Positions 24,579 to 43,615 of a stretch of DNA of 64,000 bases are shown here, piece by piece. Position 1 is the stretch's first letter. The number at the start of each line of letters is the position of its first letter. This stretch comes from Fulvitalea axinellae. GTDB lineage: Bacteria; Bacteroidota; Bacteroidia; Cytophagales; Cyclobacteriaceae. A program made the position numbers and the translations under genes. A model generated the notes under the pieces. It was not told the DNA's origin. It made no database searches and saw only the letters and a program-made list of their open reading frames with translations. The stretch covers positions 186,001-250,000 of the forward strand of contig NZ_AP025318.1 in assembly GCF_036492835.1 (NCBI RefSeq), written 5' to 3'.

Positions 24579-24623
24579 AAAAAAAGGCCCATTCTCTTTT
24601 CGTCACCGAAAGAAAATGGACCC
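24579..24623 (-). terminator. Terminator at the end of the FAS1/Sus locus
   Basis: On the minus strand a stem (GGGTCCATTTTCTTTCG against CGAAAAGAGAATGGGCC, imperfect) is followed by seven U. It lies about 30 nt after the stop of the last lipoprotein gene and directly upstream of the oxidase operon. Confidence 0.75.
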
Positions 24624-24656
24624 AACTCTCTAAGCTTTCAAATAAAACCCTTTCTT

Positions 24657-26594
24657 CTACTCCTCTTCTGTCTCTCCTTCAGGAGCCACCGCAAATACCC
24701 GGAATTCAGCTATATTGGAATACTTCTGCCAATTTGATTCCCTGTACGCCCCATTAATCTGGATTTTAACATAACGAGCCTCTTTAAACTCGGAACAATA
24801 AAATTCCTTCCAGTCGGAACTATAAGATCCAGGCCAGATATATTTGGCCACTTTTGTCCAATTCTCACTGTCCAAGCTGACAAAGACATCCATGTCAGAA
24901 ATATGGTCTTTGTACTGTGTCCTCGGCAAGTAACGGAATCCCATCACTTTAGAGGTCTGCTTCATGTCAATAGTAATGATATGCGGATAAACAAAAGAAC
25001 TGTTCTGCCAGTCCGTTTGCCAAACTGTCCCTCCGTCGTCGTCAAACATTTTGCTTTCATGGTGTTTGGCTTCCTGACGCGTATAATCGGAATGCGCACT
25101 CCAGAAAGTCGGATCAAGCTCTATACGCTCATATGCGGCAGGATTACGAATCAATTCACTGTCTAGAGCGTACCCCATATTTTTCTTAACATTCATCAGG
25201 AACTCCTCATCGCCCACAACGTTTCCGAACAACCACATATGATCATGGGGAGTGAACACAAACCCTTCATAACTTGGCAGGTTATTCCTTTTTTGGTCAT
25301 AATACCCCTGTATGATATCGACATCAGGGTAGGCTTTTTCCAACGAATCCAAGAAGAACAAATACTTTCCTATTCTCAATTCCTCCGGGTAGCCCATCTG
25401 CTGTTCTTCCGTCATGTTAACGGGATCGAACTCACGATAACGCTCATCCGCTTTGGCTTTGTCAATATAGCTTTGAACTTTGTCTCGGGCACCGCTTACG
25501 CCCAGGCGTTCCAACACTTTATAGGCGGCATACATACCAAAAGCATTATCCCCAAAGGGCTCGTTATTGGGCAAAGACCAGACACCGTGCACCAACTCCG
25601 CCAAGCGGTAGCGCATTTCTTCCTCATTTTCATAATAGGCTCCTACGGTAAGCATATTTTCTCCGAAAAGGCTACTGTTGATCCCCGTAGGCAATACATT
25701 AATCTTTACGGCTCCCTCTTTTGCTTTAGGCACTCCCGTCCAAGCTTCCATTTCAGGAGCTATTTCTCCGAACAACGTACTGATATTCTTAGCCTTCTCA
25801 AATTGGAAGTTATTAACCGAAAGCTTACTTCCATCATTTTCGATCTCAATTTCAGGAGCTATAGACGGTCTAAATTTATCTGAACTGGCAAATCCCTGTT
25901 TGTTAACGGAAATCTTGCCCAACAAATCCTGATAAAATTGGTAGTTGGCCTCAACCTTCTCGTTACCAAACAAGTCAATGCCCGACGCAAACACTTTACC
26001 TTCACCAAAATCCCTAACCGCACAGACAGGCATCCCCCCGGCCTCAAGCAACACTTCCCAGTCCCCTTCTGTCAACTCCAAGGCATAGCCATTATTAAAC
26101 GAACGAAGGTTTTTGCCTTCAAGTGATCCCGGGGTTAATTCCGATGCGTAACTAAAACCGAAACGGGAAGCCAGTTCGTTCGCCGAAGCCTTTGACTCCA
26201 TTCCGTCTCCCATACCAAATATGGCCAGCGCTCCGCCATTCTCCAATTGCGTAAAGTAGGAGAGAATGTCTTCGTCACTATATGAGTTTCCATTATCGAC
26301 ATTCACAAACACGTTTAACACACTCACCGTTGAGAGGCTTGATTTTAACCTTTCCGGTACGGCAATAGAATGCGAAACGCTCTGCTGGCTTCCAAAATCA
26401 ATAAATTCACTAAAAACGGAGCCTTCTTGGCCCATCAAGTTTGGAGTCCAGTATTGAGACAGGTCGTTCATTACGTGAACACCCGTTTTTGTTGTCACCT
26501 CAGTTTCTGGCACAACGTATATATCATCCTCTTGATCACAGGAAAAAATGGTTCCCGCCAGGATCAAGGTTCCTAGTAAAAGTCTATTCTTCAT
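24657..26594 (-). CDS. Discoidin (F5/8C) lipoprotein, M60-like layout without zinc motif
   Basis: 645 residues from ATG at 26594, with lipobox FSC (Cys19). Residues about 35-240 resemble the GATase-like N-domain found on M60-type surface peptidases (FGMGDGMES, VRDFGEGKVFASG). Residues about 245-480 form a helical domain (ELVHGVWSLPNNEPFGDNAF, MWLFGNVVGDEEF), but no HExxH zinc site is seen. Residues about 490-635 form an F5/8 type C domain (DDDGGTVWQT, DMDVFVSLDSENWTKV, EARYVKIQING), which usually binds sugars at the cell surface. It may be an inactive, binding-only relative. It is the last gene of the locus; a 222-nt spacer with a hairpin separates it from the gene before. Confidence 0.8.
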   Translation of the reverse strand: MKNRLLLGTLILAGTIFSCDQEDDIYVVPETEVTTKTGVHVMNDLSQYWTPNLMGQEGSVFSEFIDFGSQQSVSHSIAVPERLKSSLSTVSVLNVFVNVDNGNSYSDEDILSYFTQLENGGALAIFGMGDGMESKASANELASRFGFSYASELTPGSLEGKNLRSFNNGYALELTEGDWEVLLEAGGMPVCAVRDFGEGKVFASGIDLFGNEKVEANYQFYQDLLGKISVNKQGFASSDKFRPSIAPEIEIENDGSKLSVNNFQFEKAKNISTLFGEIAPEMEAWTGVPKAKEGAVKINVLPTGINSSLFGENMLTVGAYYENEEEMRYRLAELVHGVWSLPNNEPFGDNAFGMYAAYKVLERLGVSGARDKVQSYIDKAKADERYREFDPVNMTEEQQMGYPEELRIGKYLFFLDSLEKAYPDVDIIQGYYDQKRNNLPSYEGFVFTPHDHMWLFGNVVGDEEFLMNVKKNMGYALDSELIRNPAAYERIELDPTFWSAHSDYTRQEAKHHESKMFDDDGGTVWQTDWQNSSFVYPHIITIDMKQTSKVMGFRYLPRTQYKDHISDMDVFVSLDSENWTKVAKYIWPGSYSSDWKEFYCSEFKEARYVKIQINGAYRESNWQKYSNIAEFRVFAVAPEGETEEE

Positions 26595-26655
26595 ACGATT
26601 TGACTCAAAAATTCCGACAAAATTTTGAATAGATAGTTTCCGAAAAGTAGTGATA

Positions 26656-26683
26656 GCGGAAACGGAATTAGTCCCGTTTCCGC
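26656..26683. repeat. Perfect 10-bp stem-loop in the locus tail
   Basis: GCGGAAACGG (26656-26665) pairs with CCGTTTCCGC (26674-26683) with an 8-nt loop. No U tract follows on either strand, so it is more likely an mRNA stability or processing hairpin than a terminator. The arm shares GGAAACGG with the nrdB-nrdA hairpin. Confidence 0.6.
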
Positions 26684-26816
26684 AGTGAGCCAAGGTAAGC
26701 CTTTTGCTCGCCTCGCTTAGGTTTCTTTGCCTATGAACCTATTGCTACTCCGTATGTAACGCTTTATGTATTGCCAATACTAAAACCATATCACTAAGTT
26801 CCCCGGAAACGTTAGC

Positions 26817-28391
26817 CTACTTTGCGACAACCCATCCGTCGGGTCCGCCACAATCCGCTCCGCCTGACCTGTAGTGCGCACCGTCGCTGGAAGTGGGGTC
26901 ACCTATCACCACATTCTGGCCCTCAAACACGACACAAGAGCTTGTCTTCATGTTTATTACGGAGCCTCTTTTACCTGCCCTGTTGTTTTCGAATATGCAG
27001 TTTCTTATTCTGGGTTTACCCACTAATTCCAGCGCTCCAGCTTCGTCTCCAGCTTCATTGTCCTTGAATACGCACTCGTTAAAGAATGGACTGTTATCAT
27101 CCACACTGATCTTATAAGCACTGCATAGAAATACTCCTGCCCTTTTTGTAGAATAATTTCCTTCGAACAAGCACCGCGTAAATACGGCTTTATTCTTCAG
27201 CAGGTACCCTGCGGCGCCATACTGTCCTTGATTATCAAGAATATCACAATCTGTAAAGTGCGGAGAGCCCGACAGAATATAAAGTACACCTTTGCGGGCC
27301 TTTCCGTTTTTAATCACAAATCGCTCGACCTTACATTCGTCATTCAGATTCGACGCCGACATTTTGAATGTAGCCGTCCCTTCTTTTCCAGCGTCCGGAG
27401 CCAATCCCTCGGCATTAATCACAGTCTTAAGATTTTCAGGACGTTCCTCCATTGTATTTTCCGTCCCGGCAAAACCTCCATAAAGGTCCACGCCCTTTTT
27501 CAACTCAAGCTGAAACTCTTTATAATCCCCCGTGGCGGCTACCCATATCTTAACGCCTTCCTTGGCTTCGCCCATAGCTTCCCCAATGCTATTAAAAGCA
27601 GAATCCCAAGAAGCCCCCGTTCCTCCGTCAGGAGCAAGCAGGTTTACGTAAATCGTTGAGTTGGTCACAAAAGACTTAATCTCGCCTGACCCAGACGCAA
27701 ATTCGTTCTGAACCACTACATAGTAGCGGTATTCTTGGTCAGGGGCAAGGTTTTCGGCCCATGCCGTAAATACACCGCCTTCGCTAAGTATAAAGTTTCC
27801 GTCCGTATCTTTCTCTGGCGAAAAGAAGCTCTGCCTTTCGGGCGAACCTTTTGGCCAACATACTATCGTGATTTCCGGATTGTCACTTCCACCGTCACTA
27901 ATCAATTTGCCACTCAATAACGCTCGATTAAAAGTTACGGATTCGTGAGTCAAAGTCTCAGCGGAAGGCTCGCTCACGGTAGAAGATATCAAGGTGGAAA
28001 ACGAAATCGGGTCGCCGTCTTGCCGGGCATCCTGATCCTCAACGGCAAACGTATAGGCATAATCAAAGTAGGATTTCAAGTCTTCAAGGTGAACGGAAAA
28101 CTTCTCGCCGTCTAAAAATGACTTTCCTTCCTCAAGTTCAATCGAGGCTTTTTTGCGAGTGTTCATATCCCCTTGCTCCCAATAATAAAAGCTGACATCC
28201 TTTATGCCCGTCTCACCAACGTTAAGGATCTCGCCGTTCAGCGTGGCCTCGTTTTCGCCGATCTCCGTCGCCGTCAAAGTGGATACTTTCAGGCGCTCAA
28301 CCGCCGGAGGAGTCTCAAACCCCGGCTCGTCTTCGTTGCAAGCCACAAACACAGTCATTGCGGCCAACAACATAAAAAGATATTTTTTCAT
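26817..28391 (-). CDS. Lipoprotein with beta-sandwich and beta-helix domains
   Basis: 524 residues from MKKYLF at 28391, with lipobox VAC (Cys18). Residues about 35-235 hold two Ig/FN3-like strand-rich modules (ATLNGEILNVGETGIKDVSF, RALLSGKLISDGGSDN). Residues about 240-510 match a right-handed parallel beta-helix of the kind in surface polymorphic proteins (LAPDGGTGASWDSAFNSIGEA, GVDLYGGFAGTE, repeated FTDC/FTRCLFEGN turns). Such folds bind or cleave polysaccharide. No catalytic set of a known lyase is recognised. The position directly after SusD suggests a surface glycan-binding or depolymerising lipoprotein. Confidence 0.82.
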   Translation of the reverse strand: MKKYLFMLLAAMTVFVACNEDEPGFETPPAVERLKVSTLTATEIGENEATLNGEILNVGETGIKDVSFYYWEQGDMNTRKKASIELEEGKSFLDGEKFSVHLEDLKSYFDYAYTFAVEDQDARQDGDPISFSTLISSTVSEPSAETLTHESVTFNRALLSGKLISDGGSDNPEITIVCWPKGSPERQSFFSPEKDTDGNFILSEGGVFTAWAENLAPDQEYRYYVVVQNEFASGSGEIKSFVTNSTIYVNLLAPDGGTGASWDSAFNSIGEAMGEAKEGVKIWVAATGDYKEFQLELKKGVDLYGGFAGTENTMEERPENLKTVINAEGLAPDAGKEGTATFKMSASNLNDECKVERFVIKNGKARKGVLYILSGSPHFTDCDILDNQGQYGAAGYLLKNKAVFTRCLFEGNYSTKRAGVFLCSAYKISVDDNSPFFNECVFKDNEAGDEAGALELVGKPRIRNCIFENNRAGKRGSVINMKTSSCVVFEGQNVVIGDPTSSDGAHYRSGGADCGGPDGWVVAK

Positions 28392-28418
28392 AGATACCAT
28401 TTTTTAAAACGTCCTGTT

Positions 28419-29987
28419 TTACTCTTTTCCCAAAAAGTTCATATTGAAATCCAGATACCAATTATCCGGATTGATCAATTCGGTATACACTTCTTGAGCC
28501 TTGGCTTGATCCGTAAATTTTTGAGCCACGCGTTTGGCCAGCATCATCGGGTTATTCGATCGAGAGGCAAAACGCACAAGCGTATTCCATCGACGGCCCT
28601 CAAAAGCGAACTCCCGGGCGTTTTCCTCCAACAGAATTTCTTCCACCGCTTCCAGTTTATTCAGCAAATGCGGAGCGTCCTTCAGTCCCGTATATTCCAA
28701 AAGGTCAATCGATTCCAAGTTGATACGCTTACGGATACCGTCCGCCTCGGGCTGGCCCGGGATTCCGGTGTTGATTGTCGCCATGGCGTCATCGTGCAGA
28801 TTCATCCTGTTTACTGCCTCAGCGTACATCAGGTGCAAGTCAGCGGCGCGGTAGATACAAAATGGCGCTTCGCTCACAATCTCACTGCTTAGCGACATAT
28901 TATCTTTATCCATCACGTACTTGCGGACAAAGTATGACAGCTTCCCGCCGATTGTGGAAAAACCTACGGAACCTCGCTCCCTTCGAAAATCCTCATCATT
29001 GTCATGGACATCCTCCCAAGCGCTGATCGCCTGAGCCGTTGGTTTAAGCAAATAATCACCAGCTATGCCGTATAAGAAGAGCTTAGCGAATCCGTTAGAC
29101 TGTCCGCCAGTTCTCTTGAAAGGCACTATCGACACATGTTCGGCGTATGCGGCGCTAGTCTCTGTTGTTGGTACCGCATTCCATATTCTTTCCCATGAGC
29201 TTCCTCCTGTCCGGTTGCTGCACTTAAAGAAGTCCGAATCCTCTCCTCCTCCGTCGGTTACTATCGCCTCCAGGAAATACCCAGAAGCCGTGGAGTAATT
29301 TCCGGTCAAAAGGTGTAGCTCGCCCAACAAGGCGTTTCTGTTTATATTAAACCTATCCCAAGCAAAATCATCCGAATCCCCTCTCCAATGAAGTTTAGGA
29401 GCGTCTTTAACAGCTTCCATCTCTTGGACAAGCCAAGCCAAAAGTTTTGTCCGTTCGATCATTTCTGGTTCAAAACTCTCCCCATAACCTGTCAATGGAT
29501 CCAGAATAAGCGGCACTGACTTATAAGTCTGGGCTAATTGTAGGTATGTCCACGCCCTTAAGCTCTTGGCTTCAGCCAAGTACACCTCCATAATCTCTTC
29601 CGTAAAGTCGGCGTCGACAAGGGCCTTATCAACATTAGCTATGATATCGTTACATGCGAGGATCACGTCATAAAACACCCTAGGGTTCGCGTACACGTTG
29701 TTTTTCCCTATACGATGTTCGTCGATCTCGATCAGATCCCCGTTATAATTGTCGGTAACCGTAAGCAAATCCGCGCGGAGATCCCCCAACACGACGACCT
29801 CCTCTACCAAATCCTGTAATTCGGCATAAGCGCCGATCATAGCGCTACGAACCTTTTCATTGGATGTCCAATGTTTGTCTTCCTCAAGGATCGTATCCTG
29901 ATCCGGATCAAAATAATCGGAGCAAGATCCCAAGCCTAAAGAGCCCAAAAGCAAAAGGCAAATCCAGAGTCTTGTAAATGTTCTCAT
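28419..29987 (-). CDS. SusD/RagB-family lipoprotein (second pair)
   Basis: 522 residues with lipobox GSC (Cys22) and the TPR-rich SusD fold. Family features are KHWTSNEKVRSAMIGAYAELQ near the N-terminus, NDIIANVDKAL, YLAEAKSLRAWTYLQLAQTY, and the C-terminal AREFAFEGRRWNTLVRFA. SusD caps its partner SusC and captures oligomeric substrate at the outer membrane. It follows the second SusC by 68 nt. The substrate is unknown. Confidence 0.93.
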   Translation of the reverse strand: MRTFTRLWICLLLLGSLGLGSCSDYFDPDQDTILEEDKHWTSNEKVRSAMIGAYAELQDLVEEVVVLGDLRADLLTVTDNYNGDLIEIDEHRIGKNNVYANPRVFYDVILACNDIIANVDKALVDADFTEEIMEVYLAEAKSLRAWTYLQLAQTYKSVPLILDPLTGYGESFEPEMIERTKLLAWLVQEMEAVKDAPKLHWRGDSDDFAWDRFNINRNALLGELHLLTGNYSTASGYFLEAIVTDGGGEDSDFFKCSNRTGGSSWERIWNAVPTTETSAAYAEHVSIVPFKRTGGQSNGFAKLFLYGIAGDYLLKPTAQAISAWEDVHDNDEDFRRERGSVGFSTIGGKLSYFVRKYVMDKDNMSLSSEIVSEAPFCIYRAADLHLMYAEAVNRMNLHDDAMATINTGIPGQPEADGIRKRINLESIDLLEYTGLKDAPHLLNKLEAVEEILLEENAREFAFEGRRWNTLVRFASRSNNPMMLAKRVAQKFTDQAKAQEVYTELINPDNWYLDFNMNFLGKE

Positions 29988-30055
29988 ATCCGTATTGTGT
30001 TAGCACCGCCCAAGTTCAATATCAAGAGCGGTGCGATATTTCACTAAAACCTAGA

Positions 30056-33000
30056 TTAGATGCCAAGTTTGAATCCCGCCATCAAGCTACGCGTCACCGG
30101 TACGCGTCCGTAATCGGCGCCCATACCGGCTCCGCCAACAACCGCCGAAACATCAGGCGAGAATCCAAGATATTTGGTGTATGTAAACAGGTTATGCCCC
30201 GTTACATGTATATCCAGACTGCGGATTATCTTGATGTTCTTCAAAGGCACGCTATAGTTGAGGCTAATATTGCGCAGTCTTACGAAGGTTCCGTCCTCGA
30301 TCCAGCGGTCAGAAAAACGGCCGTTACCCATTGGGTCGCCATAAACCGCTTTCGGCATATCGGTAATATTTCCCTCCGCTTTCCATCTATTCTCCACCGC
30401 CGAACTCTGGTTCCGGTAAGTGTCCATAGATTCCAGATTGTTCCTTACATGGTTATAGATGTCATGCCCAGTGGCAAAATCAAACATGATATTGGCACGC
30501 AAACGTCCATAACGCAGACGTGTAACGAATGAGCCAGAAACGTCCGGATTCGGGTCTCCGATAATCTGCTTGTCGGCGGCGTTAATCACTCCGTTTCCGT
30601 CCAAATCATCGAATATCATATCACCTGCGCCGAACGGATTGCCATCTTCGTTAACCAAAGGTTTTCCTTCAAGTCCCGCCGCATTTGCCTGCTCGGTAGT
30701 GCTGAATACCCCTTTAGTTTTATGTCCGTAAAAAACGTTCACCGGCTCGCCCACTTTCATAATGCGCTCGCCTCCTTCAATCGGCGTGATTATACCTCCG
30801 TTAACCAATGACTCCTGACCAGCCGTGGCCGGCAAAGACAACAACTCGTTTTTGTAATGAGAAAGGACAAGTCCAAATTCCAACCCGAAACGATTACCCC
30901 TTATGGCTTTCACATCCAAGGCCATTTCGAGGCCCTTGTTAGAAAGGCTACCGCCGTTCCTTACATAAATGGACTCACCGTAATAAGAGGGAAGCAAACT
31001 GTACCCCAAAAGGTCATTCACCTCATTATCAAAATAGTCCAGTGATAGTTTGGCTACGCCATCAAAGACCGAAAGATCCAATCCGACATTCACGTGCGTT
31101 GTCTCTTCCCAGCGCAAATTAGGATTCGGGATACCGCCCCGAACAAGTCCGGAACCGGTATAGTAGGACGTAGACTCGTAATAAAACAGCGAGTTCACGT
31201 TACCTATATCATCGTTTCCTGAAACTCCGTAACTGGCCCTTAGCTTCAGGTCATCAATTGACTGAATTTGGGCCATAAACGGTTCCGCCGAAATCCGCCA
31301 AGCACCCGCTAGCGAATAGAACAAACCGAAGCGGTAATCCTCATCGAAACGAGAGTTCCCGTCTACGGTAGCGTTCGCCGCCAATATATATTTGTTCAGG
31401 TAAGTGTAATGAGCGGCGGCCTCAAAGCTCATCGTATTCCAAACACCACCCGAAGGACGGATATATCTCAAAGACTTATCCCCTTTACCCATTTTGACAA
31501 ACACGTCAGAAGCGGAATTGGCGTCAATCGCAAAATACTCGTCGTAATCGTTTTGCTTTCCTCTAACGCCTACACGCCCGCTAAGGTGATGCTTACGGCC
31601 GAAACTACGGTTAACATTTAGGCCTCCGGCAAAATAAGTGCTGTAATACGCCCGCTCCATATGGCCGATGACGTTACGAGCTTGCCCATCTTGCTGCGAT
31701 ACAACTCCTACATCCGGCGTAAAAGAATCTTCACTGTATTTTAGCAAGTCAAAACCCGTATTGAAATAAATATCCAAGCCTTTCGAAAGATCAATAGTAC
31801 CGTTGACACCAGCTATGGTTCTAAATGTCTCGCTATCTCCCAAAGAATTATCAATCAAAGCCTTAGGATTACTCACATTAAACATCCCGGTTTCCGCGTA
31901 ATGGGGTAAACGGTAGCCGTCCTCACTAATTTTGTAAGGACTCATCATCGGGGATTTGTACAACGAGGCTAAAATTGGATTACTCACTTCCGAGTCCCCT
32001 TGATCCCTATTAAACCCAAGACTTCTGGAAAACAGCAAAGTGGGCTTCACGGTAAGTCTCGACAGCAACTTCATCTTGGCGTTCAACCCGAAGTCAAAAC
32101 GCTCGTAACTTGTGTTCTTGATAATCCCGTCATTACTCGTGTACCCTGCGGTGGCAGCATAATTTGAGATAGCGTCACCGCCTCTTACATAAGCCGAATA
32201 GTTCTGGATAAACCCGCGTTGCTGAGTCCAGTCCTGCCAATCAGTGTCCGAAGCGTAACGGTAGTGTTCCTCCCCTTCCGCTTCTCCAACCATAAAAGGA
32301 GAGTACGTCTTGATAAATTCATAATCATGCCCTTGCCCACGCATCTGCTCTAGGGTAAGGTTTTTATGCTCCGCAGCATTAAGCAACGGCATTTTGCGAG
32401 GTTTAAACTGCACCCCAAAATTCGCCTCTACTCCCACACGGGTCTCCGTAGCTGTCGAGCTGGCGGTTTCGATAATTATAACCCCGTTTGCGCCTAATGA
32501 ACCGTACAGAGAGGCAGCACCGTCCTTAATCACGGTCACACGATCGATATTCTCCACCTTCAAGGTGGAAAGAGGGTCCAAGTCCACGCCTCCCGTCACG
32601 CTATAGTCAGCGAAGCGGTTCTCAAAAATCACCCCATCGACTACAACCAAAGGCCGGGTGTTTGCGGACAACGAGGAGATACCCCGAATATTCATATTGG
32701 AACCGTACCCCGAAGCCCCTGAACGGGCACTGCTATACATGCCCGGGACCAAACCGCTCAGGGCGTCGGACAGGGTGATATACCCTTTTCCGGAAAAATC
32801 CTCAGGCCTTAAGACTGTCGCCGCATATGGCAAATCCTTGGGTATCACATAGCCGTTTTTCCATACGGCCGGGTCCATATCCGAGACACTTGATTCGTCC
32901 AAAAGACTGACATCCAACGTAGTCCTTCCATTCAGATAAACCAATCTGGTCTTGAAGCCCACATAACTCATCTGCAAAGCCGCCAACCTAGGGTCGACTT

Positions 33001-33223
33001 CCAGAGAATATCGGCCTAAACTATCCGTCTGCGCCGTCTTGCCGGAAACTCCGTATACACTTACCTGCACATCACTCAATGGCTGTCCATTGCGGGCATC
33101 CGTCACTACACCCCGCACAGGAACTTGCCCCTGAGCGACAGATACGTGACAAAACACCAGCAAAAGCATGGACAAGCACATCGCCGTGCGCAGCGCTTTA
33201 TATTTATGCTTTATATGATCCAT
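30056..33223 (-). CDS. SusC/RagA TonB-dependent transporter (second pair)
   Basis: 1055 residues from MDHIKHK at 33223. A signal peptide (about 1-31) is followed by a carboxypeptidase-D-like domain (VPVRGVVTDARNGQPLSDV, about 33-110). The plug then shows GYITLSDALSGLVPG and the SusC signature NMNIRGISSLSANTRPLVVVDGV, with the TonB-receptor plug end ANGVIIIET. The rest is the outer-membrane barrel, ending in an aromatic-poor SLMAGFKLGI. A second N-terminal stretch (about 105-140) lacks the usual TonB-box-like region in a clear form. It forms an import unit with the downstream SusD. Confidence 0.93.
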   Translation of the reverse strand: MDHIKHKYKALRTAMCLSMLLLVFCHVSVAQGQVPVRGVVTDARNGQPLSDVQVSVYGVSGKTAQTDSLGRYSLEVDPRLAALQMSYVGFKTRLVYLNGRTTLDVSLLDESSVSDMDPAVWKNGYVIPKDLPYAATVLRPEDFSGKGYITLSDALSGLVPGMYSSARSGASGYGSNMNIRGISSLSANTRPLVVVDGVIFENRFADYSVTGGVDLDPLSTLKVENIDRVTVIKDGAASLYGSLGANGVIIIETASSTATETRVGVEANFGVQFKPRKMPLLNAAEHKNLTLEQMRGQGHDYEFIKTYSPFMVGEAEGEEHYRYASDTDWQDWTQQRGFIQNYSAYVRGGDAISNYAATAGYTSNDGIIKNTSYERFDFGLNAKMKLLSRLTVKPTLLFSRSLGFNRDQGDSEVSNPILASLYKSPMMSPYKISEDGYRLPHYAETGMFNVSNPKALIDNSLGDSETFRTIAGVNGTIDLSKGLDIYFNTGFDLLKYSEDSFTPDVGVVSQQDGQARNVIGHMERAYYSTYFAGGLNVNRSFGRKHHLSGRVGVRGKQNDYDEYFAIDANSASDVFVKMGKGDKSLRYIRPSGGVWNTMSFEAAAHYTYLNKYILAANATVDGNSRFDEDYRFGLFYSLAGAWRISAEPFMAQIQSIDDLKLRASYGVSGNDDIGNVNSLFYYESTSYYTGSGLVRGGIPNPNLRWEETTHVNVGLDLSVFDGVAKLSLDYFDNEVNDLLGYSLLPSYYGESIYVRNGGSLSNKGLEMALDVKAIRGNRFGLEFGLVLSHYKNELLSLPATAGQESLVNGGIITPIEGGERIMKVGEPVNVFYGHKTKGVFSTTEQANAAGLEGKPLVNEDGNPFGAGDMIFDDLDGNGVINAADKQIIGDPNPDVSGSFVTRLRYGRLRANIMFDFATGHDIYNHVRNNLESMDTYRNQSSAVENRWKAEGNITDMPKAVYGDPMGNGRFSDRWIEDGTFVRLRNISLNYSVPLKNIKIIRSLDIHVTGHNLFTYTKYLGFSPDVSAVVGGAGMGADYGRVPVTRSLMAGFKLGI

Positions 33224-33286
33224 ATATTTTCTTTTTAATTGGGCCAAATGCGAATACGCATGCCCAAATGCCAAAAAACAGCGTGC

Positions 33287-34765: not shown

Positions 34766-34793
34766 ATTGATAAAATTTTCCAAATACAATCCC

Positions 34794-36269
34794 CTAATTG
34801 TCAACCGGTCTATAGGTAAGGCAACCTATTATGAAACGTCCTGGCCGGAAATCCTCGAAAGTGATCTTGTGGACCCCATTCTCTTCGAAAGTGAACTTGC
34901 CTAGGCTACTATTACCGCCACGCGGATCCACTATATTTCCTTCCTCTCCGTCCACGGTAGTCAGGTAAGCTCCCGTACCCGACCAAGTTTGGCCTGTCAA
35001 GGTTATCTCATAAGTGCCTTTTATCAAAGGAACAGTCTCATACGTAAATTTTCCGGTAAACTTTGAAAATACAAGGAAACCATTGCCACCGTCACAACTT
35101 CCTTGCGAGTGCCAATACGCTTGGGTCCAACCGCCTTCCCCTGTCCATCGGGCTACGTCTTTGGTATAGAAATTACGGTCTTGGTTATTCCTACTTTTGT
35201 ATTTTTCCAATTCCGGCTGGTCCAATATTTTATCGACTACGGTAACGGGCTTAGGTTCCATTACCTTCAGAAAATCGACAACTTCGTGAATCACGCCGTT
35301 CTTGGCCTGAATATTCATTTTCTCCGAAGACACAAAGCCATTAGCGCTCTCGAATTCCCCGAATTCATTGAACACAGGATTTATCTGAAACTCATGGTCG
35401 GCGTTGATACTCATAAACTGGTTATTCACCGTCGAGTACATGCCTGTTCTGATTTCCGAAGAATAATACTGTTCATTAATGAAATGGTATCCGATATAGC
35501 GATTCAGGGCATTGTCCGGGCTCGTATAGTCTCCGTCATCAGCGCTTCCCACCAATGTTGCCAACTCTTCTACCGATCCAATTCCCTGAGACTCATAAAA
35601 CTCGTCAGACTCAACCAATGCCGTAAACCGCAAGCGACGGCCTTCATCATTATAAAACATGTTAAGCTTCTCTGTCCAACCCGTCAATACCATAGCGTTG
35701 TAGAAAATGCTATAACCTTCGCTTTCCTCGATTTTCTTCGATACGCTTTTGGTAATCGGCGTAAGCACCTTGTCGATAGTATGGGCCACGCCGTTGGAGC
35801 ATACAATATCCCGTTCGGTTATAGTGGCGCTCTTGTCGATAAGAAGGTTGTTTACGCCCCCGTCACGGAAATCAACCGTGGCCAAGTTTCCCGCAAACGT
35901 GGAATCCTCGAAAATTCCCGGCTTCATGATATCCGTCGGATATTCACCTGTAAGGAAATGTGTAGCCACAACCAGACGCACGTATTCCTTTTCCAGTGAA
36001 TTTATATCCTTGCCTTCTAGAAACTCGGCTACCGCTTCGTTGTCCGGCAAGAAACCCGTAAAGGTACCCGTAGCGTTCAGCATTCCGTAAAGGCCGCTAA
36101 TATCCATAAGCTTCCCAAACTCTGAATACTGGTCCGGGTTAGCGCTGATAAACTCGACGAGAGTCATCGTTTCGCTCGTCATAAACTGCTCGGTGGCATC
36201 GTCGTCACACGCCTGCAACACCCACAAGGGCAACAGCAGGAGTATAAACCTTAAATTAATGTTTTTCAT
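34794..36269 (-). CDS. Fasciclin (FAS1) lipoprotein with C-terminal beta-sandwich
   Basis: 491 residues with lipobox QAC (Cys21). Two FAS1 domains: about 34-172 (FTGFLPDNEAVAEFLEG, IVCSNGVAHTIDKVLTP) and about 178-338 (ending AKNGVIHEVVDFLKVMEP). The C-terminal 140 residues form a beta-rich module (TYEITLTGQTWSGTGAYLTT, NGVHKITFEDFRPGRFIIG). The same layout is found in the next gene, so the two are likely diverged tandem duplicates. FAS1 domains mediate adhesion and, in Bacteroidota Sus-like loci, commonly stand where SusE/F-type glycan-binding proteins are expected. It lies 12 nt after the first SusD. Confidence 0.86.
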   Translation of the reverse strand: MKNINLRFILLLLPLWVLQACDDDATEQFMTSETMTLVEFISANPDQYSEFGKLMDISGLYGMLNATGTFTGFLPDNEAVAEFLEGKDINSLEKEYVRLVVATHFLTGEYPTDIMKPGIFEDSTFAGNLATVDFRDGGVNNLLIDKSATITERDIVCSNGVAHTIDKVLTPITKSVSKKIEESEGYSIFYNAMVLTGWTEKLNMFYNDEGRRLRFTALVESDEFYESQGIGSVEELATLVGSADDGDYTSPDNALNRYIGYHFINEQYYSSEIRTGMYSTVNNQFMSINADHEFQINPVFNEFGEFESANGFVSSEKMNIQAKNGVIHEVVDFLKVMEPKPVTVVDKILDQPELEKYKSRNNQDRNFYTKDVARWTGEGGWTQAYWHSQGSCDGGNGFLVFSKFTGKFTYETVPLIKGTYEITLTGQTWSGTGAYLTTVDGEEGNIVDPRGGNSSLGKFTFEENGVHKITFEDFRPGRFIIGCLTYRPVDN

Positions 36270-36281
36270 CTCACTACTGTT

Positions 36282-37721
36282 TTAATGCTCATAATACGGG
36301 TTCTGCTTCAGGTTGATATTGTTGCGCAGTTCCTTATAATAAATCGGCATGAAATAGCTCATCGGGTCAGACAGCTTACTTTCCCACAAATCCCTGTCGG
36401 CGGCGGGAGCGTTCTCCACCAATTTGTCAATAAGCATTTGCTTGCGCTCGAAGTTGTTGCGTTTGGCCACGCGAAGCAGGTCGAACCAACGCTTCCCTTC
36501 GAAAGCGAACTCCAAAGCCCTTTCGCTCAAAATCATATCTTCCGCGGTGGCTTTGTCGCCAGGTACAATTTTGCCCCCCAATCCAGCTCTCTCCCGAACC
36601 TTGTTGAGCAACTTCTGCGCTTTAAGCGAAGCGCCCTGCTGCACTAAAGCTTCCGCTTTCATAAGGAGAATGTCGGCATACCGGTACACGATCCAGTTCG
36701 TTGAGCTTCCTCCCAAATACATCTTAGTGATTTCCAATGTCTCCTCATCGAAACTCACTCCCATCCCGCGCTCTTCGTCATTGATATCCTCAAACGCCTC
36801 GAAGCCAGTGTCAGAAATCAAAACCTCAGGCTCTTTGATCAAGAAATCGAAAAAAGGATTAGGCTGGCTTTTCACCTCACTGTACTGGATCTCGAATACG
36901 CCTTCCAGCGAATTACCGCCTTCGTCGAATATGTCGTCGTAGAAAGCCTGCTCCGAGAAGTCTTTCGTTTCGTCCGGCGTCATCAACGCATGAGCGGAAC
37001 GACTGATGATCTTGTCACACATCACCAAACATTCGTCATACTTCTCGGCCCAGAGGTACACATCGGCCAAAAGCGCCTGTATAGCCGACTGGGAACCCCG
37101 CCCCTTGTTAAGACTCAGAGAACCGAAATCCCTTTTGGCATATTGCTCGGCCCAAACCAAATCCTCGATGATCTGATTAAGGATGGTCTCTTCCGAACTT
37201 TTTCCCAAAAAGAAATCTACATCGTCATTTTCCGAAGGCTCCAGCACCAAAGGCACTTCATGGAAAGTGCGAACCAGATAGAAATAAACCAGCGAACGCA
37301 CAAAATAAGCCTCGGCCATATATGCGTTCATGTCCTCTTCCAGAAAAGACGCGTCATATTCCCTAGTCGCCGGAGCGTTTTTAAGAACGGAATTAGCGAG
37401 GTTGATCACCGTATACATCCCTGTCCAGTTAGACAGGCCGTTATCATCGACTATTTGTAGTGCCAATATCCGCTTGACATCCCCGCCGGCGTTCTCGCCA
37501 ACCTGCAGGAAATCACCTCTTAGCTCCCCCCACCAAAACATGGTTTTGACCTGTGAGCGCAAAGCGATGAAAGTCGAGTTTACAGCGGCTTCCACATCCG
37601 CCTCCGATTTCCAGAAAGTCTCCTTACTGATAGAGTTCTGCAATTCAAGCTGAAGCCAGTCCGAACATCCGAAAAACGAAAACGACAATGCCACAAAAAA
37701 CAATATTTTTATCTTTTTCAT
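36282..37721 (-). CDS. SusD/RagB-family lipoprotein (first pair)
   Basis: 479 residues from MKKIKI at 37721, with lipobox FGC (Cys19). An ATG 18 nt upstream is also in frame, but the shorter form has the standard signal peptide. SusD features are NSISKETFWKSEADVEAAVNS, AEAYFVRSLVYFYLVRTFHEVPLVLEPS, VYRYADILLMKAEALVQ and RALEFAFEGKRWFDLLRVAKRNN. The last is a highly conserved motif of the family. It caps the first SusC, which ends 25 nt upstream. Confidence 0.94.
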   Translation of the reverse strand: MKKIKILFFVALSFSFFGCSDWLQLELQNSISKETFWKSEADVEAAVNSTFIALRSQVKTMFWWGELRGDFLQVGENAGGDVKRILALQIVDDNGLSNWTGMYTVINLANSVLKNAPATREYDASFLEEDMNAYMAEAYFVRSLVYFYLVRTFHEVPLVLEPSENDDVDFFLGKSSEETILNQIIEDLVWAEQYAKRDFGSLSLNKGRGSQSAIQALLADVYLWAEKYDECLVMCDKIISRSAHALMTPDETKDFSEQAFYDDIFDEGGNSLEGVFEIQYSEVKSQPNPFFDFLIKEPEVLISDTGFEAFEDINDEERGMGVSFDEETLEITKMYLGGSSTNWIVYRYADILLMKAEALVQQGASLKAQKLLNKVRERAGLGGKIVPGDKATAEDMILSERALEFAFEGKRWFDLLRVAKRNNFERKQMLIDKLVENAPAADRDLWESKLSDPMSYFMPIYYKELRNNINLKQNPYYEH

Positions 37722-37746
37722 AAGATTTTCTTCTTTCATGAAAAAC

Positions 37747-40700
37747 TTAGAAGGTCACCGAAGCTCCAAGCACGACAGATCGGCTAGGTGGCGTATAGCC
37801 CTTGTCTTCGCCAAAGTAGAAAGCGCCAGACCCTAGACCCACTTCCGGATCTTGCCCGGTATAATCGGTTATGGTGAATGGCCTGTTTACCGTTGCATAT
37901 ATCTTGAAATCCGACATTCCCAACCTCTTCAACATAGCTTTGTCAAGCCTATATGACAGCGATATACTGTTGCAACGGAGGTAACTGCCCTCTTCCACAA
38001 AACGGTCCGAGCCTAACCAGTTATAACCCGTGTTATAAATTGTCCGTGGGATGTCCGTCTCATCGCCGGTTTTTCTCCATCGCCTCAATGTCGCTACGCT
38101 CTGGTTACTCCGGGTAGACATATTCTCGGTGTCAATTCTGCCACGGTTAACAATCATCTGACCGCTACGGTAGACAAATCTTGAACTCAGCGTCAGCTTG
38201 CGCTTATAGGACAGCCTAAAGCTGAAACCTCCCGTGAAATCCGGATTACTGGATCCCAGATATACCACATCCAGCTCATCTATCACCCCATCGTGGTTAA
38301 TATCCTCGTAAATAGCGTCGCCTTCCTGGAAGGTGTAGTTTGTCGTGCCTCCCATACGCATCCTGAGATAGTCCTCCGAACCGGTGTAATCAGGAATTCT
38401 ATTGCCGTCACGGTCACGGGCATAAGTCGATTCCTTGTCAGGAAATACTCCCAGATAACGGTACCCGTAAAAACCGCCAATCGGCCTTCCGATATCGACA
38501 CGGCGCCCGTACTCTCCGTTTTTCAGCATGTTTCCTGCTTCCAACGCAATATTATCCGGCACTGCCTGCACCTTGTTGAGGTTTCTCGCAATGTTGAATT
38601 TGAGATCGAGAATCCAAGTCTTGTTCTTGATTGGTGTAACACCGAAATCAAACTCCACTCCGCTGTTGGTCATCTCGCCGGCGTTCATGTAGTATTTCTT
38701 GTACTCCTCATCAAACCCTGAAGACCCAGGGAGTTTAACTTGCCACAACAAATCCTTGGAAGATTTACCATACACCTCGAATGTCATCCGGAGACGATTC
38801 TGAAAAGCGCTAAAGTCAAATCCAGCGTTCCAGCTAGTCAGACGCTCCCACGAGAGATTCCGCAACTGTACGTTACTCGGGCGGATACCGCTACCGTCAA
38901 CATATCTGTCGTCATCGCTTCCATATGTCAAATAACGGCTTCCACTACTTGGTGGAGTACCGTTGACACCGTAACTGGCCCGGAACTTGAACTCGTCGAT
39001 CTGCTCGACATCACGCAAGAAACCTTCCTGAGCGATCCGCCAAGCGACCGCGCCAAAAGGGAAAGCCCCCCATTTTGTCTTCTCTCCGAAATTGGAACTG
39101 GCATCGAAACGGACACCGCCAGAAAGTATATAACGATCGTCAAATTTGTAATGAACGTTTAGCAGCCCGCCCAAGTCACGGCCTTCGCCGGTAGAAGATT
39201 TAACACTTGGAGCAGAACCGTCCGCACCCGGGTTCGTAATCTCGTCAGAAGGCAAATTGCCCGCAGCCGCGGAGAAATTGGTAGCTCTCTTCTCATATGT
39301 TTCCCAACGGAGGTTTACAGATAAGTCGTGCTTCTCTTCAGCAAACTCAGGAGTGTAAAACAAGTCCGTAAAAGTACCGACAGTGAACGTTCCCGAATTA
39401 CTTGAAGTCGCCTTGTTCTTGCTATCCGAAGTCCAAGCCCCCTGATTAGTCGCCGCTTCCGAAAGCATGGCGTTTCTACGGTTGTTGTTCAGGTCAAAAT
39501 TGATCGTACTCCTGATAAACAAATCATCCAAAACGTAATACTGCAAGGTGAACTTCGAACGCAAACGGTCATTAATAAGCTGGTTCGACGATTCGTTCGC
39601 CATCGCTACCGGATTATAGAATGGCGTATCCTTATCATTATACTTAAATGTCTGATACGGGTTTTCCCAGTCTCCGTTAAAGTATTCCCCCGTCAAGTTC
39701 CCTTCCGCATCATGTTCGTAGATAGCTTCGTTGGGCATCTTTTTGTAAGCGATACTCCTTATGTTGGAGTAGAAAGCATCATCACGATAAGCGCGAGCGT
39801 AACTTATATCGGTTATAAATTTTAATCGGTCCGATATAAAGTAGTCCAGGTTGATTTTTGTCGTTAATCGCTCATAACTGTTACTTGTGGTTGTTCCATC
39901 GTTTTGATGATAAGAAACAGAGGTCCGGTATCTCACCTTTTCCCCGCCTCCCCCTAAAGACACAAAGTGTTCTTTCATCACGCCCGTGCGGGTAATCTCG
40001 TCCAACCAGTCAGTGTCTTGATGATAATTGTAATAGTTCTCATCTCCCAACTGAGTCGTCAGTACGTCATGCAGACCCAAGTTAATGTTACCCCTGTCAT
40101 TAAAATACATCTCCTGCTGTAGCGTCACGTACTCGTCTCCGTTAAGCATCGGAATAGGGTCGGGCTGATAACTAAAGCTGGTTTTATAAGAGTATTTCAA
40201 GGTAGGTTTGGCTTTGCGTCCCCTCTTGGTGATTACTTTCAAAACACCGTTAGCGGCCTTTGACCCGTACATGGCCGCTGACGCGGCGTCTTTAAGCACC
40301 TCGATACTCTCTATGTCCTCAGGCGCAAGAGACAGCATGGCCCCGTACTCCCTAGTGTCCGCCGAAGCGAAATCGAAATCTTCATCAATTTCCGTTTCGA
40401 AAGGAATTCCATCCACAACAATTAGCGGTTCACGGTTACCGAGAATTGTTGAGGTACCCCGTATACGGATCTGCATACCGGCGCCAGGGTCACCAGACGC
40501 CGCGATGATATCGACACCACTAATCTCACCCTGAAGCATCTCATCAGCCGAAGTGGCGCCAATAGGGTCGAGGTTAGCCAAATCCACTTTTTTGACCGCC
40601 ATAGGCACATCACGCAACTTAATTCCTGTGGACGTTCTGCGTTCGGAACGTACCTCAACCACATTCAGCTGGGTAGCCTCTTCCTGCATCGTAATGTTTA

Positions 40701-40980
40701 CGTCCTGCTGGCCATCCACCTTCCTAAACTCTTCCTTAAACCCTACGTAAGCAAACTTCAACCGGAAAGCGGGGTTGATCTTCAACATATAGAATCCGTT
40801 GAAGTCCGTTACGGTACCTGACACGAAACGGTTTTCAGCGTCGACTTCCAAAATGTTTACACCAATCAGCGGTTCACCATCCGCGGATTTCACATAGCCT
40901 TTCACCACTACCTTTTCCTGCGCCAAAGCACTGGATAAGGAAAATAAAAGGCATATTATCAAAAAGTAAAAAGTCCTCAT
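37747..40980 (-). CDS. SusC/RagA TonB-dependent transporter (first pair)
   Basis: 1077 residues from MRTFYF at 40980. A signal peptide (about 1-21, ALA|QEK) precedes a carboxypeptidase-D-like domain (VVVKGYVKSADGEPLIGVNI, about 23-105). The plug shows the SusC signature MQIRIRGTSTILGNREPLIVVDGIPF and SAAMYGSKAANGVLKVITKRG. The large barrel carries many aromatic strand ends and closes in VVLGASVTF, ending in Phe as needed for outer-membrane insertion. It imports oligomers using TonB and proton motive force, paired with the downstream SusD. Confidence 0.95.
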   Translation of the reverse strand: MRTFYFLIICLLFSLSSALAQEKVVVKGYVKSADGEPLIGVNILEVDAENRFVSGTVTDFNGFYMLKINPAFRLKFAYVGFKEEFRKVDGQQDVNITMQEEATQLNVVEVRSERRTSTGIKLRDVPMAVKKVDLANLDPIGATSADEMLQGEISGVDIIAASGDPGAGMQIRIRGTSTILGNREPLIVVDGIPFETEIDEDFDFASADTREYGAMLSLAPEDIESIEVLKDAASAAMYGSKAANGVLKVITKRGRKAKPTLKYSYKTSFSYQPDPIPMLNGDEYVTLQQEMYFNDRGNINLGLHDVLTTQLGDENYYNYHQDTDWLDEITRTGVMKEHFVSLGGGGEKVRYRTSVSYHQNDGTTTSNSYERLTTKINLDYFISDRLKFITDISYARAYRDDAFYSNIRSIAYKKMPNEAIYEHDAEGNLTGEYFNGDWENPYQTFKYNDKDTPFYNPVAMANESSNQLINDRLRSKFTLQYYVLDDLFIRSTINFDLNNNRRNAMLSEAATNQGAWTSDSKNKATSSNSGTFTVGTFTDLFYTPEFAEEKHDLSVNLRWETYEKRATNFSAAAGNLPSDEITNPGADGSAPSVKSSTGEGRDLGGLLNVHYKFDDRYILSGGVRFDASSNFGEKTKWGAFPFGAVAWRIAQEGFLRDVEQIDEFKFRASYGVNGTPPSSGSRYLTYGSDDDRYVDGSGIRPSNVQLRNLSWERLTSWNAGFDFSAFQNRLRMTFEVYGKSSKDLLWQVKLPGSSGFDEEYKKYYMNAGEMTNSGVEFDFGVTPIKNKTWILDLKFNIARNLNKVQAVPDNIALEAGNMLKNGEYGRRVDIGRPIGGFYGYRYLGVFPDKESTYARDRDGNRIPDYTGSEDYLRMRMGGTTNYTFQEGDAIYEDINHDGVIDELDVVYLGSSNPDFTGGFSFRLSYKRKLTLSSRFVYRSGQMIVNRGRIDTENMSTRSNQSVATLRRWRKTGDETDIPRTIYNTGYNWLGSDRFVEEGSYLRCNSISLSYRLDKAMLKRLGMSDFKIYATVNRPFTITDYTGQDPEVGLGSGAFYFGEDKGYTPPSRSVVLGASVTF

Positions 40981-40990
40981 AAACAGGGGT

Positions 40991-43168
40991 TTAATTTTCC
41001 AATAACAATACGCCATTAATCTGATGGATCGCGGCTTTATTCGCCATGATATCACTGTTGCCCTTCTGCTCAACCCTTACGTCACTCTCCATATCTCCCA
41101 CGGCAACAATCCTAAGGTCCCGTTGCGAATTCTGGATCTCAAGACTTATGCGTTCACCCGCAATATCTTTCGCAAAGGTTCTGAACTTTCCGGCCTTCTG
41201 CCCATCGGAGAACACTTGCTCTTCTTCAAGGAAATAAAGGTTGAGGTAGTTCTTTAGCGTAGCCTCGCCATCATCCCCGTCAATGTTTCCTTCGGAATCC
41301 AGCCCCGGTATCTTACCAGCGATCACGGCGGCCTCAATGGCTTCATTTGTAGGAATGAATACCGTAAGCTCTTTTTCAGGGATAGTCATATTGGCTTTCT
41401 CAAGCAACCCTTTGAACCCTTGGAACACATCTCGAGCGTAAAGCTCATCATCAAGGTAGTCCTGAGCCTTGGCGCTTGGCCCATCCAAACGTCCTGCGAT
41501 CAAATAGGTAACACCATTATTCCCCCCTTTTTCGGCTTCCATAATATCAATGGTTTCACCTACTTCCTGGTTACCGCCAGCGTACACCCTACCATTTTCC
41601 ACGCAAATGTAAATGTCGCTATGAGCCTTAAGGAAGCGTCTTTCCGTGATATTGTCCAATGCCACATTATCAACCAAATGATCTGAGATCAGTCGAGAAC
41701 CACCGCCCCATGGAAAAACATCGTCTCCGATTCTCAGGGTAAAAGATTCCAGAACTTCATCATAAAAGATTCCCTTATCGTTGAAGCCTTGATCCGATAA
41801 CGCGAAGAAGGTCAGTTGAGAGTCTTTGTTTGACAATAACTGGTTTACCTCATTGGTGGTGACAAACATTCGCATCAGGTAGCTGAAATCCGGATCAAAC
41901 AATACCCGTGACGCGACCGACTTGTAAATATTTGGCTCAATGACTTTATTGATTCCGTAAATCACCCCATTGTTGCACCACTTGATCAACTCAACATCTT
42001 GGTCCTTATTCAGGGAAAGTGGCTCATAAAGACCTGACAAACAATCGTCAAGCTCGCTTGGTCGAGTCCACGTGTTATAGATGGAGCACAAATGGTTGCC
42101 CACCAAATAGGCCAATACCTCTTTAGGTATTTCGTCAACCGAAGCATAACGCCCGTTCAGAAAATTTTCATCGAGATAAGCCTGCAACGCCTCGTTTGTG
42201 GGAATGTACGAAGCCAAAGCCTTAGGTTCGCCCAGCTTGAAATTGTCTTGGATATTATAATTAACAATATCATTGGCTACGCTTGTGACTGTCATGCCCT
42301 CTCCTCGGCCTCCTCTATACCGTTTCACAAAAACCGAGTCCCGATAGCCTAATTCGTTAATCGGCTGTTTGGAAGTCCCTTCGGATGAGAAAGAATAATA
42401 TGCGAACCGGTCCAACAGGCTTCTGAACAAGCTAAACTTATCCGACATGTCCGCCATAGTCCTGTCAATATTTGGAAGGGGTTCGATTACCCTGTCCAAT
42501 TCGTGGATCATCCCGTTACTGGCAAAAATATCCTTCTCTTTGACTTTGGCGTTAGCCATATGCTCGCCGTCATACGGACGGCCTTCTTCCGGAAAAAGAT
42601 CCTGATAATCAGACAATTCCTTAAGGCCTACGAAAAATTGAGGCGCCATAACAGGAATAAACTTCTGAGCCTGCCAGACTTTGTAGGTTTTTCCATCATC
42701 AACAGAAACCTCCTCTACAAAAGGAGCCCGATAGAGTGTCGGCCGTTTAAATCCCCACAAGCCCGCTCCGTGAGGTCCCAAATCGTCCTCCTCGCTCCAA
42801 TCCCTAAGGTGCATCTTCAGGAGTTTTTCCCATGTCATCGCATTATTCACCACATGGTTCAAAACAATACCCTTGAGCTCCTCTTCCGAAAGGTCATCCA
42901 AACTGGTGTAACCCTTGCGCTGGAAATAAAGGTCGAATGCTTCGTCATTTGGAGGGAACACGGTATAAGAGCCCGACACCAAAGTTTTTTCAAGCCCCAA
43001 ACGTTCGATCGCGTCACTGTATAAGCTCAGATTAGCCCGGGCCCCGATTACGTCCACTACTGTTCCGAACTCGTCTTTCGGCACATCATAGTGCTCTTTC
43101 TCTTCATCACAAGCCGCAAAAAAGAAGCAACCTATGAGCAAAAGATAACATAGTCGTTTTCTTACCAT
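40991..43168 (-). CDS. Multi-domain fasciclin (FAS1) lipoprotein
   Basis: 725 residues with lipobox AAC (Cys20). Four FAS1 repeats can be read by their hallmark strand: YTVFPPNDEAFD (about 68), LASYIPTNEALQ (about 310), LTFFALSDQGFND (about 460) and LTVFIPTNEAIEA (about 610). Each repeat ends in a NGxIxxI/NGVIYxI-type segment (SNGMIHELDRVIEP, NNGVIYGINKVIEP, KAAIHQINGVLLLE). The third is the most diverged. It lacks the C-terminal beta-sandwich of its two shorter neighbours. As the first gene of the operon and 10 nt before the first SusC, it is likely a surface binding partner. Confidence 0.85.
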   Translation of the reverse strand: MVRKRLCYLLLIGCFFFAACDEEKEHYDVPKDEFGTVVDVIGARANLSLYSDAIERLGLEKTLVSGSYTVFPPNDEAFDLYFQRKGYTSLDDLSEEELKGIVLNHVVNNAMTWEKLLKMHLRDWSEEDDLGPHGAGLWGFKRPTLYRAPFVEEVSVDDGKTYKVWQAQKFIPVMAPQFFVGLKELSDYQDLFPEEGRPYDGEHMANAKVKEKDIFASNGMIHELDRVIEPLPNIDRTMADMSDKFSLFRSLLDRFAYYSFSSEGTSKQPINELGYRDSVFVKRYRGGRGEGMTVTSVANDIVNYNIQDNFKLGEPKALASYIPTNEALQAYLDENFLNGRYASVDEIPKEVLAYLVGNHLCSIYNTWTRPSELDDCLSGLYEPLSLNKDQDVELIKWCNNGVIYGINKVIEPNIYKSVASRVLFDPDFSYLMRMFVTTNEVNQLLSNKDSQLTFFALSDQGFNDKGIFYDEVLESFTLRIGDDVFPWGGGSRLISDHLVDNVALDNITERRFLKAHSDIYICVENGRVYAGGNQEVGETIDIMEAEKGGNNGVTYLIAGRLDGPSAKAQDYLDDELYARDVFQGFKGLLEKANMTIPEKELTVFIPTNEAIEAAVIAGKIPGLDSEGNIDGDDGEATLKNYLNLYFLEEEQVFSDGQKAGKFRTFAKDIAGERISLEIQNSQRDLRIVAVGDMESDVRVEQKGNSDIMANKAAIHQINGVLLLEN

Positions 43169-43615
43169 ACTTTAGTATTTATGTTAATCAGAAAAAATGA
43201 GTTCAAAAATTATTAATAGGGCTCAAGGCCCTATATGACTGTACAATTGAAAACCAAAAACGAATAGCGTGATCCCTTTTGAATTCGGAATAAATTTAAT
43301 CTCAAAACCTACTGTTCAGCTCACAAAAATTGACCAAAAAAAAGGATTATTCTCTTCCGTTTACTCATCGTTTACCCTCATTAAATCTTGTTTATCTACA
43401 TTACATTTAACGAGTTTAAACATTCACAAAAAACACATATAAGCAACTACAAAATAGAGGGTTACGAAGAAAAACTTCGTCTTTAAGAGCGGTTACTCTT
43501 TGTCAATCACGGCTATTGGATGTGCCAACTTGTAAAAATTGACAAGGAAAGGGAAGAGTATAAGCCTTTTACAATGCTGACGCAATTCCTTCTGAAATTT
43601 TTTAACTCATATTCT
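43169..43615. other. Divergent regulatory region, 447 nt
   Basis: This AT-rich spacer separates the FAS1/Sus locus (minus) from the sulfatase (plus). It contains a perfect 7-bp-arm palindrome (listed separately), and the paired run GTTTACTCATCG then GTTTACCCTCA near 43362-43381 may be a direct repeat. In-frame upstream codons of the sulfatase (from 43520) are open but not supported as its start. Confidence 0.55.
43216..43234. promoter_or_regulatory. Palindromic operator-like site upstream of FAS1/Sus locus
   Basis: ATAGGGC and GCCCTAT are exact inverted 7-mers separated by TCAAG. The site lies about 48 nt upstream of the first FAS1 start codon, within the divergent promoter region. It may be an operator or a 5'-leader hairpin. 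Confidence 0.5.

Follow-up and report, generated by a model that had tools for sequence, protein, structure and literature searches.

A cassette of two SusC/SusD pairs and three FAS1 lipoproteins that occurs fifteen times in the genome of Fulvitalea axinellae

What does a SusC/SusD locus take up when no enzyme that would cut a glycan is recognised among its genes? The question is raised by nine minus-strand genes in a stretch of 64,000 nucleotides (nt) of the Fulvitalea axinellae genome (contig NZ_AP025318.1, positions 186,001 to 250,000; hereafter the window, in whose coordinates positions are given). We found that this block recurs at 14 other places in the genome, so that the gene order in the window is not due to chance, and that its first seven genes form a module conserved across Bacteroidota. 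The locus is likely to be one of a family of Sus-type outer-membrane capture-and-import units with FAS1 receptors, the enzymes being encoded elsewhere.

The nine genes of the locus

All nine minus-strand open reading frames (ORFs) of a preliminary description of the window were recovered in the order it gave, from 43168 down to 24657, and Pfam and NCBIfam confirmed their domains. They are listed in order of transcription.

40991..43168, minus strand: gene 1, FAS1 lipoprotein with four FAS1 repeats (Pfam Fasciclin; 15 copies in the genome)
37747..41073, minus strand: gene 2, SusC1, TonB-dependent SusC/RagA transporter (Pfam Plug; NCBIfam TIGR04056, 717.5 bits)
36282..37739, minus strand: gene 3, SusD1 lipoprotein (Pfam SusD_RagB and SusD-like_3)
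34794..36269, minus strand: gene 4, FAS1b lipoprotein, two FAS1 domains and a C-terminal domain (Pfam and our own FAS1 model)
33287..34804, minus strand: gene 5, FAS1c lipoprotein, a single FAS1 domain recognised in the window copy (Pfam and our own FAS1 model)
30056..33274, minus strand: gene 6, SusC2 transporter (Pfam Plug; TIGR04056, 625.7 bits)
28419..29987, minus strand: gene 7, SusD2 lipoprotein (Pfam SusD_RagB)
26817..28400, minus strand: gene 8, beta-helix lipoprotein with a fibronectin-III-like stretch and right-handed beta-helix / PMP-like repeats
24657..26693, minus strand: gene 9, discoidin lipoprotein with GIFT-like, predicted gluzincin-fold (no HExxH) and CBM32 domains

Coordinates of gene 2 are those of the longest ORF, and its true start probably lies downstream. 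Pfam placed Fasciclin in genes 1, 4 and 5, Plug with a carboxypeptidase-regulatory domain in genes 2 and 6, and SusD in genes 3 and 7; NCBIfam assigned genes 2 and 6 to OMP_RagA_SusC. The nearest solved chain to SusC1 is 8aa4_A (1.8e-104), from the dextran complex, and the nearest to SusD1 is 9sje_B (4.2e-34). FAS1 repeats were counted with a domain model built in this analysis, which counted four for gene 1 (its first repeat being split into two), two for gene 4 and a single one for gene 5; across the genome, 10 of 15 FAS1c copies have one domain and 5 have two. The C-terminal domain of FAS1b matches a xanthan-lyase domain weakly.

Spacers had been put at mostly 10-68 nt, which is nearly right, although the measured values between longest ORFs span a wider range (-83, 7, 12, -11, 12, 68, 18 and 123 nt), with the overlaps of -83 and -11 partly due to the choice of the longest ORF. 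The nine genes would be transcribed as one operon. The N-termini of the locus proteins resemble lipoprotein signals (one automatic check of these was lenient), and the lipoproteins, which would sit at the cell surface, occupy the places that binding proteins hold beside SusCD.

Fifteen copies in one genome

We searched the genome (7.39 Mb in 15 contigs) for FAS1 domains and obtained 80 domain matches, which fell into 15 clusters. Gene content, order and strand are shared by all 15; 14 are complete, and one copy, c2 (copies are given c numbers here, and related loci L numbers), consists of the first seven genes only, without genes 8 and 9. Gene 1 used alone as a query likewise led to 15 places. 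Two adjacent SusC/SusD pairs are present in every copy (15/15), and 30 of the 67 SusD matches in the genome lie inside the copies. Identity to the window copy varies from about 27% to 62%, depending on the gene and the copy.

We compared the 14 complete copies, leaving c2 out. Pairwise distances correlated across all nine genes (r 0.73 to 0.95), and in each of the eight gene pairs put to a permutation test, shuffling the labels 2000 times never gave a correlation as high. Three splits are common to all nine gene trees; the block therefore evolves as a unit. A SusC1 tree built by a quick method with SH-aLRT support joined the 14 copies in one clade (support 100) and grouped c2 with a Cytophagales metagenome-assembled genome (MAG; support 99). 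Among copies the SusC and SusD proteins have a mean identity of 47-54%, whereas the mean for FAS1, beta-helix and discoidin proteins is 32-37%, as would be expected if the surface receptors diversify faster.

Tight co-evolution with two SusCD pairs also bears on the idea that the FAS1 proteins are mainly adhesins, that the block is for attachment to surfaces or contact between cells, and that SusCD import is incidental. FAS1 profiles match periostin and TGFBIp, and the PMP-like repeats of gene 8 point the same way. Given the co-evolution, and the hydrolases that adjoin the core in other lineages (see below), we regard this explanation as very unlikely. In the accessible text of PMC10199937, a FAS1 gene with high transcription and a contig with two SusCD pairs are both mentioned for one symbiont, but as separate matters and with no link drawn.

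A seven-gene core in other Bacteroidota

A SusD1 scan of named genome contigs returned 440 relatives, and we kept the best 80, so that the closest are over-represented. All of these loci (80/80) have FAS1b, and 79/80 have SusC1. Where enough upstream sequence was available, gene 1 lies upstream in 64 of 65 loci; in L098 the match is downstream. Where enough downstream sequence was available, SusC2 and SusD2 are present in 50/50 loci and FAS1c in 48/50, and FAS1c is apparently absent from five loci (L092, L102, L111, L113 and L116). Hosts include Prolixibacteraceae, Odoribacteraceae, Sphingobacterium, Parapedobacter and Echinicola, and the 23 genomes having gene 1 carry 1 to 8 copies of it, some partial. 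The placing of FAS1 lipoproteins beside SusCD, noted in the preliminary description for this locus alone, is thus conserved well beyond it. After SusD2, three Bacteroidales loci share a family of proteins of about 700 amino acids (L073:19261-21468, L061:19299-21515 and L080:19464-21521), whose sole recognised feature is a Por secretion tail in L073.

Genes 8 and 9 had no match in the 80 loci, of which mostly about 2 kb beyond SusD2 was covered. In 23 other genomes a gene 9 profile matched the CBM32 part only; gene 8 was sought, outside the source genome, within the 80 loci. Within the loci and genomes searched, the two genes were found only in the source genome.

At a threshold of 1e-30, none of the 18 relatives searched (12 from the same family, 6 from the same order) had gene 1, and a recent origin from a close relative was rejected. 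In a sample of 395 genomes of the phylum, with the two best candidates per genome scored, the source and 7 others had a near full-length gene 1 match and 4 had a partial one (1e-20). Because matches are few both in the relatives and in this sample, we consider the spread of the cassette patchy.

Enzymes near the locus and its relatives

Pfam, NCBIfam and profile comparison detected no catalytic family in any of the nine genes. The earlier statement that the locus shows no catalytic set holds for these nine; just outside them stands a sulfatase.

43520..45058, plus strand: type I sulfatase, divergent, outside the cassette, starting 351 nt from gene 1

Type I sulfatases carry the motif C-x-P-x-R, and in this protein it is intact as CSPSR (residues 111-115). 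A second sulfatase lies in the window at 5980-7533 on the minus strand (genome match C5:192331-193434).

The glycan-degrading enzyme that marks a Sus-like polysaccharide utilisation locus (PUL) was not detected among the nine genes and was found beside the seven-gene core in several other lineages. The following are selected examples and not a census. GH88 adjoins the core in L076 (and, by similarity, L088, L115 and L120), Echinicola pacifica and Parapedobacter; GH28 does so in Sphingobacterium athyrii and Echinicola pacifica. PL11 occurs in L118 and L119; the genome of L118 also has GH115 at a greater distance. Puteibacter has GH20 twice and a sulfatase beside the core. Further examples are L069 (GH30), L078 and L160 (GH2) and L083 and L155 (a DUF4450 protein); sulfatase-like genes adjoin the core in L065, L086 and L098 and lie upstream in L162. 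The preliminary description had proposed to look in Bacteroidota for FAS1 next to SusCD without hydrolases. The pairing itself is general in the sample of 80 loci, but at the loci whose neighbours were examined the core often adjoins glycoside hydrolases, lyases or hybrid two-component regulators.

These neighbours allow another account, in which the cassette is ordinary PUL machinery for sulfated or pectin-like polysaccharides and the neighbouring sulfatase is the dedicated enzyme of the window copy. The intact CSPSR protein, the 62 sulfatase matches in the genome, the sulfatase-like genes at the four loci named above, and GH28, GH88, PL11 and GH115 beside the core in Sphingobacterium, Echinicola and Parapedobacter speak for this account. 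Counts in the source genome argue otherwise. Only 2 of the 62 sulfatases lie in the 12-kb stretches upstream of the copies, for 2 of 15 copies, versus 1.5 expected by chance; none of the 62 lies in the 20-kb cassette stretches; and GH88 is scarce, with 2 matches over the cut-off. The sulfatase was accordingly rejected as a fixed partner of the cassette, the reading as a sulfated-glycan locus is weakened, and we judge the PUL account unlikely.

We scanned 20 flanking proteins of the 15 copies with Pfam. They are mostly housekeeping proteins (DnaX-like, gamma-glutamyltransferase, P-type ATPase, PspC, AAA), the others being a sulfatase (c14), a weak GH42-like protein (c12), an iron-containing alcohol dehydrogenase (c5 and c10), an FGGY kinase (c10) and FecR (c13). 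FecR lies upstream of c13 (L038:562-1755), and small proteins of one BLAST cluster near c13 and in the flanks of c2 (L012/L027) are candidate extracytoplasmic function sigma factors. Directly downstream of the window copy is a cytochrome oxidase cluster (18272-24625, minus strand) of COX2 with cytochrome c, COX1, COX3, CtaG, and cytochrome b with a cytochrome c domain. Three ORFs of 353, 500 and 1049 amino acids lie in a row at 57476-63311 on the minus strand, possibly an efflux set judging by size alone.

Genes 8 and 9

Gene 8 matches the Pfam Beta_helix family weakly (25.3 bits, against a cut-off of 25.9). The genome holds 14 full copies of it, all inside cassettes, and two partial matches.

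Gene 9 was modelled, and the predicted structure has a GIFT-like domain (residues about 71-265), a gluzincin-fold domain (about 268-518) and a C-terminal CBM32 domain (about 522-673), the last identified as CBM32 or F5/8 type C both by family profile and by fold. The preliminary description would have counted it against its own reading if the beta-helix or discoidin protein proved to be a known lyase or peptidase, and this applies by half: the predicted fold of gene 9 is that of a gluzincin peptidase, but the HExxH zinc motif occurs in 0 of 14 copies, and the relaxed form H[EQDST]xxH is also in none of the 14. Because the zinc motif is missing throughout, gene 9 probably encodes an inactive peptidase that serves as a receptor.

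Which peptidase family it derives from matters for a further alternative, in which the imported material consists of glycopeptides or of glycoprotein fragments resembling mucins or proteoglycans, and gene 9, an M60-like peptidase by origin, has given up catalysis but still recognises the ligand. In addition to the predicted gluzincin fold with CBM32, the M60 mucinase AM0627 (7yx8_A) is among the Foldseek matches of gene 9 (TM 0.63 by query length), and in L053, an Odoribacteraceae MAG, an M60-CBM32 protein directly follows SusD2 (19370-21373). According to the accessible text of PMC11992087, mucin O-glycoproteins are acted on by a SusCD locus of B. thetaiotaomicron that includes an M60-CBM32 lipoprotein. 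On the other hand, the best structural matches of gene 9 are M1 aminopeptidases and not M60; M60 is not among the best 50 matches listed in one structure comparison, AM0627 having appeared in another. Profile comparison of gene 9 with the L053 protein aligned CBM32 alone, Pfam M60 had no match in the 14 copies at E up to 1 and none in the genome, and an adjacent M60 protein was found in 1 of 80 loci (phmmer, L053 protein as query). The fold is compatible with M60 membership, yet no sequence match was found, so that assignment was rejected. We hold import of glycopeptides by this route to be improbable.

A linked LamG protein

Upstream of the window copy of the cassette is a putative regulator.

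45146..47209, minus strand: linked putative regulator with LamG, a membrane helix and a winged-helix-like C-terminus

In the seven family members scanned, LamG and a membrane helix near residues 400-440 were present in all, and one had a weak Trans_reg_C match (0.0091). A profile comparison of the family's C-terminus with six OmpR-type domains gave P 0.0022 with a probability of only 13% (unrelated control, 0.72). The best hint of DNA binding comes from a family member away from any copy (C1:1133409-1134386), which matched Trans_reg_C at 1.5e-4, below the curated cut-off.

Of the 16 matches to the family in the genome, 8 are found in the 12 kb upstream of a copy, and they are spread over 7 of the 15 copies (c1, c3, c6, c7 twice, c8, c11 and c14; the c3 member is a short frame of about 300 amino acids). 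Chance would give 0.39 (P 1e-9; with the seed left out, 3e-8). Because family and cassette may have been duplicated together, which could add to the enrichment, the count shows linkage and not regulation. The protein is probably a sensor-regulator, with a weakly assigned DNA-binding part. One of the related loci, L051, carries a hybrid two-component regulator upstream; a protein of the same cluster was found in 20 further loci, making 21 in total.

Proposed function of the cassette

Taken together, we favour a capture-and-import unit. The three FAS1 lipoproteins, the beta-helix lipoprotein and the CBM32-bearing lipoprotein would hold a large ligand, a glycan or glycoconjugate, at the cell surface; the two SusCD pairs would import its products by a lid-and-barrel, TonB-driven route, perhaps as two classes or sizes of product; and the cutting enzymes would be encoded mostly elsewhere in the genome. 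The block would have been duplicated as a whole within the lineage, after which the copies diverged, probably toward different ligands, and the LamG protein may sense sugar and switch expression.

Several observations weigh against this explanation. One beta-helix copy has a weak pectate-lyase-like match (0.0017), and the weak GH42-like protein of c12 is found at about 1.5 kb on its upstream side, so the copies are not wholly enzyme-free nearby. FAS1 domains could serve adhesion alone. The chance-level count of upstream sulfatases counts here as well. Word counts in the 15 upstream stretches of 350 bases did not rise above six shuffles per setting, giving no shared promoter motif. The Bacteroidota-type promoter consensus is TAnnTTTG with a -33/-7 pair; TAnnTTTG was found in 4 of the 15 stretches and the full pair spacing in 1 of 15.

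A bolder proposal, offered tentatively and more likely wrong than right, is that the lineage made an enzyme-free repertoire of receptor-importers from the seven-gene module. It would have added the beta-helix protein and the dead peptidase, which would now merely hold the ligand, made 14 diverged copies of the block, and tied many of them to lectin-type (LamG) membrane regulators of transcription, each copy recognising and importing a different glycoconjugate cut by shared enzymes elsewhere. If true, this would separate recognition from degradation. Bacteroidota uptake loci are usually read through their enzymes, and for a module with few enzyme neighbours enzyme-based prediction of the substrate fails. 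A 15-copy family with matched parts would allow specificity to be mapped by comparing or swapping parts.

Comparison with known systems

Every part of the cassette belongs to a known family. In the open papers searched (subscription journals and preprints being outside the scope), we did not find a description of the double-SusCD/FAS1 arrangement, its wide conservation, the 15-fold expansion or the dead-peptidase receptor, nor one of the FAS1 proteins, two-pair design, dead-peptidase receptor and LamG-type regulator as a set; the accessible text of a FAS1 review (PMC6032426) does not mention TonB.

In SusCD import the substrate passes through a TonB-dependent barrel closed by a lid, and SusCD and additional lipoproteins can be joined in stable complexes, as described in the accessible text of PMC7618045. 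Sus-like PULs and the B. thetaiotaomicron levan and dextran utilisomes of that paper resemble the cassette in combining SusCD with extra surface lipoproteins in one gene set. Unlike the utilisomes as presented there, the cassette has two SusCD pairs and three FAS1 lipoproteins whose order is fixed, contains no surface glycoside hydrolase and is present 15 times in one genome. The solved chains nearest to SusC1 and SusD1 (8aa4 and 9sje) are Bacteroides-type SusCD.

As far as the accessible text of PMC11992087 goes, a gluzincin-CBM32 lipoprotein next to SusCD has its nearest precedent in the mucin PUL BT4240-50, with the M60-like peptidase BT4244 and CBM32 proteins. Both systems pair SusCD with a CBM32-bearing lipoprotein of gluzincin fold, predicted in the case of gene 9. 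They differ in that BT4244 is an active O-glycopeptidase whereas gene 9 lacks HExxH in 14/14 copies, and in that BT4240-50 has one SusCD pair with no FAS1 reported in that text, where the cassette has two pairs and three FAS1 lipoproteins.

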